Shown: in pieces, positions 13,258 through 19,805 of the stretch
Layout: each line of letters starts with the position of its first letter
How positions within the stretch are numbered: the stretch's first letter is position 1
Virus record (IMG/VR): IMGVR_UViG_3300023094_000028
Location: 1-30,046 of that record
DNA: 30,046 nt
Direction: 5' to 3' (one strand)
Source of the DNA: a virus
Notes under the pieces: model-generated
The model's database searches: none
What the model saw: only the letters and a program-made list of their open reading frames with translations
What the model was told of the DNA's origin: nothing
Made by a program: the position numbers and the translations under genes

Positions 13258-13754
13258 GCGAGCGGCCGAACTGCAAATCCCCCAGTGCGTGCGCGGCCCG
13301 TACCGCCGGCAAGCATTGCGCGCCGTGCTCGTTGAGCGCGCTGCATCGTGATCCCGAGTTCCGCGCCAAGCGGGGCGAGGCCTTCCGCAAGAAGATGGCG
13401 GAGGATCCTGAATTCCGAAAGCGCCATGTCGAGGCCAGTGCCGCCCGTCTGATGGCATGGCGCGCGAAGCCCGACACCAAGGTCGGCCAGCACGAAATGT
13501 CGCGCCGCAACCTCGAGAAGGCCAATTCGCCCGAGGTCGTGGCGGCACGGATCCGCGCCAAGAAGGAGCAGGCTTACGCTGGCATCCCGGAAGCGCGCTG
13601 GACCGAATGCCGCAAGCTGGCCGTGCGCTTTGGCGCGACGGAGGCCAAGCGCATCATCCTGGAAGACGAACAGGCCAAGGCCCGACGCGCCGTTGCTCAG
13701 GTGAAGGCCGACATGATCGCCCGCCGCGAGCGCGAGAAAGCGATGGCGTACTGA
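13254..13754 (+). CDS. Basic protein with N-terminal cysteine cluster
   Basis: A 166-residue, strongly basic protein starting at GTG 13254, which overlaps the previous stop. CKSPSACAARTAGKHCAPC (7-25) is a probable zinc-binding cluster. Two repeats of RDPEFRAKR/DPEFRKRH type and a long basic helix follow. The pattern recalls NUMOD-like nuclease-associated DNA-binding modules but without a nuclease core. DNA binding is likely, function unknown. Confidence 0.7.
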   Translation: MSERPNCKSPSACAARTAGKHCAPCSLSALHRDPEFRAKRGEAFRKKMAEDPEFRKRHVEASAARLMAWRAKPDTKVGQHEMSRRNLEKANSPEVVAARIRAKKEQAYAGIPEARWTECRKLAVRFGATEAKRIILEDEQAKARRAVAQVKADMIARREREKAMAY

Positions 13755-13999
13755 TGCGCGCGACCATGACCACCAGCACCGCGATGGAAATCATTCGCTC
13801 GGTATCGGATCGCACCGGGGTAGGAGTTCTGGACATCCTCAGTGATGACCGGAGCCGCCATTTGGTCCGCGCTCGCAACCAAGCGTACCTCGCCTTGATC
13901 GAGGGCGGTGCAAGCTATTCCCATACTGGACGACTGATGCAGCGCCATCACACTACCGTGATGCATGGTGTCCGTGCGGCGCGCGGGGACGCCGCATGA
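13754..13999 (+). CDS. Stand-alone DnaA domain IV (DnaA-box-binding) protein
   Basis: An 81-residue protein that matches the DNA-binding domain IV of DnaA: VSDRTGVGVLDILSDDRSRH, ARNQAYLALIEGGASYSHTG and the signature MQRHHTTVMHG. It has no ATPase domain, so it cannot remodel an origin alone. It could bind DnaA boxes and act in phage replication or interfere with the host origin. The ATG at 13754 overlaps the upstream TGA as TGATG. The first eight residues are not part of the family. Confidence 0.85.
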   Translation: MRATMTTSTAMEIIRSVSDRTGVGVLDILSDDRSRHLVRARNQAYLALIEGGASYSHTGRLMQRHHTTVMHGVRAARGDAA

Positions 14000-14352: not shown

Positions 14353-15287
14353 TGAAATTCGCCGGAGCGGTTTGGGCCGCGCTCCGAGGAAAGCGAAGCA
14401 CGGCCCGTCAACAAACCGATGGAGATATTACGATGGCTACGCAGCTTTTTCAACCGCCCCACGGCAGCCCGGCATGGTTCCACACCACGGCGCAGAAGGC
14501 GGCAGTTTCGGGTGTGATCTCGGAGCGTATCGTCCTCACGCCAGAATTGGCGAAGGCTATGCTGAACAACAACCCCGACAATCGGCTGATCCGTGTCGGC
14601 AACCTCAAGAAGCTTGAGGACGATATTCGTGCTGGGCGCTGGACGTTCAACGGAGAGCCTATCCTCATTTCGAATGAGGGCATGGTCAACGATGGCCAGC
14701 ATCGGTGCACGGCAGTAATCGAGACTAACATTCCGATCGAGACCATGATCGTGTTCGGTCTCGAGCGGGCGTCGCGCATCACCGTCGATCAGGGCGGCGC
14801 TAAGGCGGCATGCGATTATCTGTCGATGGAGGGGGTCCCCAACTCGACAAATGTCGCCGCGATCGGTCGCTTGTTGATTGCTTACGAGCAGTCCGACGGG
14901 AAGAACTTTTCCGGCTCAAGCTATATTTCCTCCGGCGAGATCGTCGCGCGCTATTACAAGGATCCTGCCCTCGGGCGCAGCGCGCTGTTTGCGGCGAGCC
15001 TGCATGTGCACTCGAAGAAGCTCGGCCCTCCGTCGGTGTTCGGCTTCTGCCATTGCTTGTTCTCGCGGATCGATCCGGCGTCAGCAGACACATTCCTTCG
15101 CCAGGTTGGTGTCGGCGAAAACATCAAAAAGAGCGACCCCGCGTTTGCTGTTCGGGAAGGCCTGTTCCGCGAACGCCTGGCACGTGACGAGAAGGCGCAT
15201 ATCATCATGCGTGGCTGGAACGCGTTCCGCCGCAAGCGCTCGCTGACGCTGACCAAGGTCATCGGCAACCTGCCGGCGCTGATCTAA
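14352..15287 (+). CDS. ParB/Srx-like fold phage protein with DGQHR motif
   Basis: A 311-residue protein whose core contains NLKKLEDDIRAGRW, GEPILISNEGMVNDGQHR (R118) and IVFGLERASRITVDQGGAKA. The DGQHR box and neighbouring segments resemble ParB/sulfiredoxin-fold proteins common in phages. A long helical C-terminal region follows. The ATG at 14352 overlaps the previous stop (TGATG); ATG 14433, with GGAG nine bases upstream, is an equally good start giving 284 residues. It sits directly before a second ParB-like gene. Confidence 0.78.
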   Translation: MKFAGAVWAALRGKRSTARQQTDGDITMATQLFQPPHGSPAWFHTTAQKAAVSGVISERIVLTPELAKAMLNNNPDNRLIRVGNLKKLEDDIRAGRWTFNGEPILISNEGMVNDGQHRCTAVIETNIPIETMIVFGLERASRITVDQGGAKAACDYLSMEGVPNSTNVAAIGRLLIAYEQSDGKNFSGSSYISSGEIVARYYKDPALGRSALFAASLHVHSKKLGPPSVFGFCHCLFSRIDPASADTFLRQVGVGENIKKSDPAFAVREGLFRERLARDEKAHIIMRGWNAFRRKRSLTLTKVIGNLPALI

Positions 15288-15976
15288 TGCAGACGATCAG
15301 TCTCAGGACCGAGATTGTGGAAGTTATCGAGCGCCACCGTGCGCTCGATAATGCTGCATGTGATCGGCTCGCCGCGTCGATGCGGGAGATCGGGCTTTGT
15401 CAGCCCATTTCTATCCGCATCGCCGACATGATGGTTATCGATGGAAAGGAGGTTGAAGGGGTCCCCGTGCTGGTTGCGGGGCGTCATCGGCTTGAGGCTG
15501 CGAAGCGCCTTGGCTGGTCGCATATCGAATGCATCGAGGTCGATGACGATGCAGTGTCTGCCGAGATGTGGGAGATCGCCGAGAACCTGCATCGGCTGGA
15601 TCTGACCAAGGATCAGCGGGACAAGCATATTCGGCGGTATGCTGAATTGTTGGACGGGCGACGCGCCAAAGAAATTCAGGCGCCGCAAGATGCTGCACCT
15701 GAAATCGGCTATCGTAAGCCGCCGCCGCAGACAAAGGGCGTTGCGCGTCAAGTGGCGGAGGAGACAGGTTTGAGCGTCGATACGGTGCGTCGTGCGCTCA
15801 ATCCTAAGCCTGTGCTCATCAAGTCAGTCGTCGAGGCGGAAAGCGACGAAGAGGCCATTCTTCGCGAAGCGAACGCGATAGTCGCCGCGTGGAACCGTGC
15901 GCGCCAAGCCGCGCGTGATCTCGCCCTCGAACAGATCGACGCGCCCGTGTTCGACAGGAGCCGTTCGGCTGCATGA
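15287..15976 (+). CDS. ParB-like protein with N-terminal ParB domain and HTH
   Basis: A 229-residue protein with a ParB N-terminal fold: LDNAACDRLAASMREIGLCQPISIR, the VLVAGRHRLEAAKRLGW box and IAENLHRLDLTKDQR box. A KorB-type HTH follows (GVARQVAEETGLSVDTVRRAL), then a short basic end. No ParA is visible in the window, so plasmid-style partition is not shown; transcription control is equally possible. The start overlaps the preceding TAA (TAATG). It is coupled to the replication gene. Confidence 0.85.
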   Translation: MQTISLRTEIVEVIERHRALDNAACDRLAASMREIGLCQPISIRIADMMVIDGKEVEGVPVLVAGRHRLEAAKRLGWSHIECIEVDDDAVSAEMWEIAENLHRLDLTKDQRDKHIRRYAELLDGRRAKEIQAPQDAAPEIGYRKPPPQTKGVARQVAEETGLSVDTVRRALNPKPVLIKSVVEAESDEEAILREANAIVAAWNRARQAARDLALEQIDAPVFDRSRSAA

Positions 15977-16689
15977 TCCGCCCTGAAGTTCTTGATGCCC
16001 TTCTGGCTGCCGGCGCCACCGCCGAGATGATCGTTGCCGCGGTCAAGGCTGACCTGCGCCAGGAGGACGTTAAGCTTCAGGAGAAGCGCGAGAAGGATGC
16101 CGCAAGGCAACGTAAGTCACGAATGTCACGGAATGTCACAGTGACTCCGCGTGACAAGTGTGACGTCCTTCCCCCCAATGAGTATATATCTAACCCCCCA
16201 TCCCAAACCTCATCCCCTGACGGGGATGATCCCCTTTCGCTGGATTTAGCTGATCGGGTTGTTGAGGCCTGGAACGGCCAGATCACCGGAACGCCCCTGC
16301 CGACAGCCCGGAAGCTGAACCCAGATCGCCGGAAGCACCTGCGCTGCCGTGTCGCCGAGCATGGCGAGGATGCGGTTTTCGTGGCGGTATCGAACATGAT
16401 CCAGTCGGATTTTCACTCCGGGCGGAGCGGGAAATGGACCGAGGGCAATCTTGGTTGGTTGCTGAAAAGCCCGGAGAATTTCCTGAAAATGCTGGAGCGC
16501 AAACCGGTCGATGTCCCGCAGTCGTCGGGGAAGCAGTGGACCGCTGAGGAGCGTGCCGCGCATCTCGCCAAGCTTGAACGGTTCGGCCTCGACAGGCCCG
16601 ATCCGCCCCAGCCGCCGCCCGATCGCAAGACGACGGCTTACGGCGCTGGAATTGGCCAACTGGTTGATCGGATTGGAATTGCACGATGA
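15973..16689 (+). CDS. Phage replication protein with embedded origin-like repeats
   Basis: A 238-residue protein. The N-terminal helix (MIRPEVLDALLAAGATAEMI) and basic segment (AARQRKSRMSRNVTV) precede a proline-rich linker. The C-terminal domain (VVEAWNGQITGTPLP, EHGEDAVFVAVSNMIQSDFHSG, WLLKSPENFLKMLE) is shared by phage replication initiators or helicase loaders. It follows the ParB-like genes and ends the replication module. The GTCAC repeats at 16116-16164 lie inside it, encoding residues 48-64, like lambda ori inside O. The exact role is inferred. Confidence 0.78.
   Translation: MIRPEVLDALLAAGATAEMIVAAVKADLRQEDVKLQEKREKDAARQRKSRMSRNVTVTPRDKCDVLPPNEYISNPPSQTSSPDGDDPLSLDLADRVVEAWNGQITGTPLPTARKLNPDRRKHLRCRVAEHGEDAVFVAVSNMIQSDFHSGRSGKWTEGNLGWLLKSPENFLKMLERKPVDVPQSSGKQWTAEERAAHLAKLERFGLDRPDPPQPPPDRKTTAYGAGIGQLVDRIGIAR
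16116..16164. other. Candidate phage replication origin: six GTCAC pentamers in mirror spacing
   Basis: GTCAC occurs at 16116, 16125 and 16135, and its complement GTGAC at 16141, 16151 and 16160. Start-to-start steps are 9, 10, 6, 10, 9, so the array is an exact dyad centred on base 16140. An AT-rich tract (AGTATATATCTAA, about 16181-16193) follows, as expected of an unwinding element. The location inside the replication gene parallels lambda ori. Confidence 0.72.
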
Positions 16690-19048: not shown

Positions 19049-19269
19049 CCTACGCAACGGAAATCCAGCAGGCCTTGGGCATCCCCGACGACGGCAAGGA
19101 GCGCGTGCGGTTCGAGATGTTCGATATGGGCCGCACGATCGGTGTGCTGGCGCGCTATCCCGATGATCGCCAATTTGCGCTGAGGTTGCCGTTTGCCGAT
19201 GACTGGCGAGACGAGGCCATCGCTGAGATCGCAGCGCGCCGGAGCGCGTATTTGGCGGAGGCGGCATGA
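19045..19269 (+). CDS. Small unknown protein after terminase
   Basis: A 74-residue protein starting MTYATEIQQALGIPDDGKER and continuing with beta strands (VRFEMFDMGRTIGVLARYPDD) and a C-terminal helix. ATG 19045 overlaps the terminase stop (ATGA), and its stop overlaps the HNH gene. It resembles no family I know. An in-frame ATG at 19036 inside terL is less likely. Confidence 0.7.
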   Translation: MTYATEIQQALGIPDDGKERVRFEMFDMGRTIGVLARYPDDRQFALRLPFADDWRDEAIAEIAARRSAYLAEAA

Positions 19270-19805
19270 CTAACCTCGATGAGGCTTTAATCGAAATGCT
19301 TCGTCGGGCACGACCCATTGAGGCGTCTCCCGAGCTTCCTATGGCTCCCGATGCCTTCCGAATGATGCGTGAGAATGCGGGCTACAACCAAGCCGAGGCC
19401 GGCGCAGCGATGGGCGTTTCCCGCGTTACGATAGTTCGATGGGAAACCGGAAAGATGCCAATCACGCGACGCGCCGCTGCCGGGCTTAATGGTCTCTACA
19501 TGGTGAAAAGTCGTGAAGTGCGTGCCCACGAAAGGTTCGTCTCTCCCGTGGTTGTCACGTCTGCAACTGGCTCGATGCGCAGGAGATCGATCCCAGCCGC
19601 GATAAAGCGAGCGGTTATCGCGAGAGATGGCGGTGTCTGCGTATATTGCGGCGCGAAGCCTGATCGCATCTTTCTCGATCACAGAATGCCCGTCTCACGG
19701 GGTGGGGAGCATAGCGAGGCAAATCTTTGCGTGTCGTGCCACCGCTGCAACAGCGCGAAGCGCACCAGGACAGCAGAGGAGTTCATTCGTTATGCAGCCC
19801 GCTGA
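19266..19805 (+). CDS. XRE helix-turn-helix fused to HNH endonuclease
   Basis: A 179-residue protein. Residues about 26-79 are an XRE HTH (MMRENAGYNQAEAGAAMGVSRVTIVRWETG). After a basic linker, residues 120-172 form an HNH nuclease with zinc pair C125/C128 (CVYCG), D138-H139 (LDHRMPVSRGG), N153 and C158/C161 followed by N162 and K165. HNH proteins near terminase often help packaging, but a DNA-recognising HTH in front would suit a homing or regulatory nuclease. It is placed between terL and the portal gene. Confidence 0.87.
   Translation: MTNLDEALIEMLRRARPIEASPELPMAPDAFRMMRENAGYNQAEAGAAMGVSRVTIVRWETGKMPITRRAAAGLNGLYMVKSREVRAHERFVSPVVVTSATGSMRRRSIPAAIKRAVIARDGGVCVYCGAKPDRIFLDHRMPVSRGGEHSEANLCVSCHRCNSAKRTRTAEEFIRYAAR

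Follow-up and report, generated by a model that had tools for sequence, protein, structure and literature searches.

The initiator gene and the repeats within it

The stretch of DNA analysed here (the window) is a virus record of 30,046 bases. Its left module contains integrase, RecT-like, RecE-like and repressor genes, and is followed by replication genes and then by the genes for terminase, a P22-like portal and the major head protein. This combination of genes identifies a temperate phage, the hosts of which are probably sphingomonad bacteria. Other genes in the window include one for a 180-residue protein with a helix-turn-helix of the DnaA domain IV type (Bac_DnaA_C; 13457-13999) and, between terminase and portal, one with a helix-turn-helix plus an HNH endonuclease (19266-19805), a possible homing-type insertion. 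Both are on the plus strand, as are the initiator gene described next and the features mapped in it.

PHROG matches identify the gene at 15973-16689 as an O-like/DnaD-like replication initiator of 238 residues. The C-terminal part of the protein matches PHROG 19658, 345 and 10469 at 1e-9 to 1e-11, and PHROG 345 is annotated as "replication initiation O-like". The initiator has no Pfam match at 1e-3 and no NCBIfam match, and neither a fold search nor a search of solved structures in the PDB returned anything significant. A tblastn search of named phages gave two weak hits only, and searching the host order with PHROG 345 yielded N-terminal matches that were mostly weak.

In the AlphaFold2 model, the N-terminal segment of the initiator (15973-16125) consists of a short helix (residues 4-12) and a long helix (residues 17-51) that ends in a basic region, with pLDDT of about 88-94 over residues 1-50. 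Judging from this model, the segment is the probable iteron-binding part, through which the protein would also dimerise. The basic motif DAARQRKSR (residues 42-50, here numbered -7 to +1) is encoded at 16096-16122 and, from the iteron covariation described below, is the predicted iteron-reading face. It is followed by a low-confidence linker (residues 52-86; 16126-16230; pLDDT about 50-55 over residues 51-90), which is predicted to be disordered, and by a C-terminal helical domain (residues 87-175; 16231-16497), delimited by the PHROG matches and the model, which would probably recruit the helicase. Since the next helix begins only at residue 87, with codon 16231, and the hairpin described below ends at 16229, the array, box and hairpin fall almost wholly within the linker.

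Six candidate iteron half-sites lie in this coding sequence: GTCAC at 16116-16120, 16125-16129 and 16135-16139, and GTGAC at 16141-16145, 16151-16155 and 16160-16164. A preliminary description of the sequence had reported them as two inverted triplets with start steps of 9-10-6-10-9 about a dyad at 16140, and this proved exact. A repeat search also recovered the arrangement, with inverted arms (16116-16139 and 16141-16164, with 1 nt between them) that are 71% complementary overall. The whole window contains 48 GTSAC pentamers in its 30,046 bases, an expectation of 0.08 per 49 bp, and in 60 second-order Markov genomes no 50 bp ever held more than 3. Furthermore, the half-sites are spread over all three codon phases of the reading frame (2,2,0,0,1,1), and six pentamers occurred in only 4.5e-5 of synonymous draws that preserved the peptide and the phage's own codon usage (mean about 2). 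This rarity among both synonymous and simulated sequences argues that the pentamers are kept beyond the need of the peptide.

The same description held that the exact symmetry of a coding array is unlikely by chance. The chance of the step symmetry alone is about 0.015, and that of the orientation pattern (LLLRRR) about 0.016. The mirror symmetry nevertheless carries less weight than was claimed, because relatives vary in the number and arrangement of their sites. Of the seven closest relatives of GTCAC type, four repeat the inner four sites (steps 10-6-10), and the outer pair is variable, so that the perfect six-fold symmetry is partly peculiar to the window phage.

The 29-nt box and the downstream hairpin

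The AT-rich tract that was previously noted behind the array is real (16177-16193), and it forms the core of a longer conserved 29-nt box, CCCCCCAATGAGTATATATCTAACCCCCC (16171-16199). Neither the box as a whole nor the hairpin at 16210-16229 had been noticed before. CCCCCCAATGAGTATATATCTAACCCCCC is unchanged in loci L002, L003 and L005, which are 28-56% identical to the window in their best tblastn segments, and degenerate boxes occur in 53 contigs of viruses and 8 of genomes; by their titles, seven of the latter belong to Sphingobium, Sphingomonas, Novosphingobium or Sphingopyxis, and the eighth is an alphaproteobacterial MAG. There is one box per genome. A collection of named plasmids contained no match, and named phages gave only partial matches of 91% over 23 bases, in Synechococcus phages. 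Variants such as AATGAAAATAATTCTAAC occur in L021, L027, L038, L042, L044-L046 and others; these loci are mostly without a hairpin and have in common, behind the box, a stretch like CCACCCATACCCACCCGGATA and a run of CGCGCG.

All boxes are read in one and the same frame, and the frame alone therefore cannot separate a role of the DNA from a role of the peptide. Because scans for the box presuppose it, we added a search based on an alignment of the C-terminal part only, outside the box. This gave 13 loci identified by their C-terminal domain, 12 of which were checked (the L100 stretch is the same as that of L099). A box of equal length was present in all 12, and so was the rare codon ATA; the rare codon TCT was used in all nine NDIYSN-type loci. 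The joint frequency of ATA plus TCT is 0.0095 per gene, and 9/9 of the NDIYSN-type loci use both. The peptides encoded by the box vary (NEYISN, NDIYSN, NENNSN, KEYISN), while its AT pattern and length are constant. Comparison of these sequences shows the box to be conserved at the DNA level beyond codon need, and it is probably an unwinding element.

Downstream of the box, a repeat search located a perfect 8-bp hairpin, TCATCCCC-TGAC-GGGGATGA (16210-16229), which has counterparts in the relatives. Their stems differ in sequence, with a constant loop length of 4 and similar loops. Of the 31 distinct loci whose box is of the TATATAT type, 23 have a 4-nt loop on a stem of 6 bp or longer, where synonymous shuffling predicts 2.2 (Fisher p 1.7e-10). 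When the box is of another type, the hairpin is mostly missing (a stem this long occurs in 3 of 21 loci), and a different, C-rich continuation takes its place. Across these relatives the predicted stem is shown to covary, its pairing being kept while its sequence changes.

We also read by eye a set of loci outside the box-bearing group that have another C-terminal domain (L118-L190). Their linkers are rich in repeats (for example GTTGAAC, GCAATGC and AACCCA, and AACCAATAACC runs) and are followed by hairpins; from these linkers, intragenic origins may be common.

Iteron type and the basic helix

The arrays upstream of the box are of several types (GTGAC/GTCAC, GTTAC/GTAAC, GGNAC, CGGAA and GGCAGA) and consist of roughly 4-10 five-base half-sites in varied layouts, and in the relatives a basic region stands directly before each of them. 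In L012 and L060 an HNH endonuclease-like segment, recognised by eye, replaces the usual N-terminal segment; behind it, a basic region and an array of GGAC type are still present.

We compared the basic regions in a register of our own choosing, with [R/K]-[Q/K/T/V] at -4/-3 and R/K at +1. In proteins with Q, T or V at -3, the mean share of GTTAC sites depended on the residue at -7: 0.035 with D or E (12 loci), 0.87 with N or T (13 loci) and 0.27 with G or A (18 loci). Similarly, the share of GGNAC sites was 0.75 with K at -3 and 0.05 otherwise. Permutation tests of both associations (-7 against GTTAC, -3 against GGNAC) gave p 5e-6, which is the floor of a test that ignores relatedness. We therefore built disjoint pairs of D/E and N/T proteins by N-terminal similarity, and 12/12 pairs differed in the same direction, including the window and L032, which share 74% N-terminal identity. 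Only in L212 does a pentamer include the -7 codon. Mutual information with iteron type peaks at positions -14, -7, -3 and 0 and is low at -6, -5, -2 and -1; on the predicted helix, the informative positions share one face.

Loci found from the first 39 N-terminal residues alone also had an array right behind the basic region and showed the same relation of residue to iteron, and a genome search with the N-terminal alignment (A3) returned two strong matches only, both known loci. A rule fixed beforehand was applied to three further loci: it held for L216 and L217 and failed for L220 (30% against a threshold of 40% GGNAC); the sites of L220 are AGGAC and fall below the threshold. The exceptions are L207 and L212, which have N at -7 and mixed sites, and L010 and L053, which have K at -3 yet only GTGAC sites.

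The covariation of iteron type with one face of the basic helix suggests that the initiator probably binds the iterons of its own gene, through a helix resembling that of bZIP proteins. Linked inheritance of helix and array, which are 20-60 nt apart, could account for part of the covariation; the association between residue and iteron is, however, seen repeatedly, in several N-terminal classes whose arrays are laid out differently. We give about even odds to the stronger proposal that a bZIP-like helix of reverse order reads own-gene iterons in phage initiators by a residue-to-base code, in which -7 would specify G by D and T by N or T, and -3 would specify T by Q and G by K. Origin specificity would then diversify among related phages, with a shared and fixed melting box and hairpin.

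A probable origin inside its initiator gene

We interpret the segment as the site where a temperate phage starts its replication, placed inside the phage's own initiator gene and working by the mechanism given below, with a probability of about 80%. The preliminary description had already placed an iteron origin in this gene, and comparison with some 60 relatives supports it through the box, the covariation of the hairpin and the covariation of helix and iterons. That description took relatives which keep the protein and lose the repeat spacing as evidence against an origin; we found the opposite, with much of the protein lost and iterons, box and hairpin kept. The GC skew turns near 10.5-11.5 kb, where gene orientation also flips, and not at 16.1 kb.

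In the proposed mechanism, two initiator molecules would pair by their N-terminal helices, and the long helix would place its basic end (DAARQRKSR) in the GTGAC/GTCAC half-sites, which lie only a few codons further on in the same gene. With several dimers bound, the array would strain the adjacent AT-rich box until it melts. The C-terminal domain would then bring in the helicase, and the downstream hairpin may help, either by offering a single strand to land on or by marking a boundary. The peptide of the linker would be only loosely constrained, which would leave the DNA to dictate its sequence.

The segment could also be an origin whose iterons are bound by another phage protein, since the window encodes, just upstream of the initiator, both the DnaA-domain-IV-like protein (13457-13999) and a ParB-like protein (15287-15976). 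We consider this unlikely: neither gene accounts for the covariation with the initiator's own helix, and the Bac_DnaA_C domain is found in only 8 of 25 records, the window included, although the records may be incomplete. On account of that count, the DnaA-domain protein was set aside as a general iteron binder. Clustered short repeats serve in autoregulation, partition and packaging as well, and a ParB-like gene adjoins, but an operator, partition or packaging site in place of an origin is improbable here. The array lies far inside the coding sequence, some 900 bp downstream of the closest promoter-like match, it is joined to the AT-rich box and the hairpin, and in the relatives examined it occurs in genes of the same architecture. 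It is very improbable that repeats and box are conserved for the peptide, with no role for the DNA. The invariant frame of the box fits such an explanation; against it, rare codons are fixed, box peptides differ under a constant AT pattern and length, hairpin stems change with pairing retained, and the pentamers occupy all codon phases.

If the origin reading is correct, protein and site co-evolve within one gene. Related phages would then offer a ready-made set of initiators paired with their origins, from which a code of DNA recognition could be deduced and then probed one substitution at a time. bZIP-like recognition would gain a place in phage replication, the disordered linker would illustrate how a gene can accommodate an origin, and origins in uncultivated phages could be located by a sequence signature. 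We found no description of this class of origin in the open-access literature.

Origins of iteron plasmids likewise place an iteron array beside an AT-rich unwinding region. In contrast to these, the array described here is coding, and the box has no match in the plasmid collection.

The basic helix of bZIP factors such as Pap1/Yap1 and AP-1/CREB reads TGAC- or TTAC-type half-sites (PMC3865217, PMC8450079), and a preference for TT in the half-site goes with the motif NxxAQxxFR (PMC8450079). Here, L023 has NNERQRRFR together with GTTAC sites, and the informative positions -7, -3 and 0 coincide with bZIP contact positions, binding by the initiator being predicted from sequence. Unlike in bZIP proteins, the helical segment of the initiator precedes the basic region, and in the AlphaFold2 model a low-confidence linker comes after that region, where bZIP proteins have their leucine zipper. 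The -4 residue is R, not A, and -7 is D in many GTGAC types. A dimer of this reverse order would favour the observed layout, with all left sites GTCAC and all right sites GTGAC. Pfam bZIP models matched neither the window protein nor its aligned relatives, and we claim no homology. The bZIP-like proteins that have been proposed outside eukaryotes, RptR and TodS (PMC12255303) and ORF80 of plasmid pRN1 (PMC4234260), resemble the initiator in reading DNA with a helix. However, RptR acts as a repressor, replication can do without ORF80, and no phage initiator that carries its site in its own gene is among them; our literature search found no bZIP-like protein described among phage initiators.

A close parallel is the origin of lambda and its Stx phage relatives, located in the middle of gene O, where iterons bound by O are followed by an AT-rich tract (PMC7466680). 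Lambda has 4-6 iterons of about 19 bp, each an inverted repeat, and extra iterons add residues to the protein (PMC7466680). The window shares with it a repeat array and an AT-rich tract within the initiator gene, but differs in its roughly 4-10 five-base half-sites across relatives, its fixed, C-flanked 29-nt box and its covarying hairpin. In addition, its initiator carries a long basic helix without a Pfam match at the N-terminus, and the N-terminal domain of the lambda O family gave no Pfam match at 0.1 in 15 aligned relatives. By analogy, the origin would work like that of lambda, yet with an initiator that lacks a recognisable lambda O N-terminal domain and with an iteron sequence that shifts between close relatives together with the helix.
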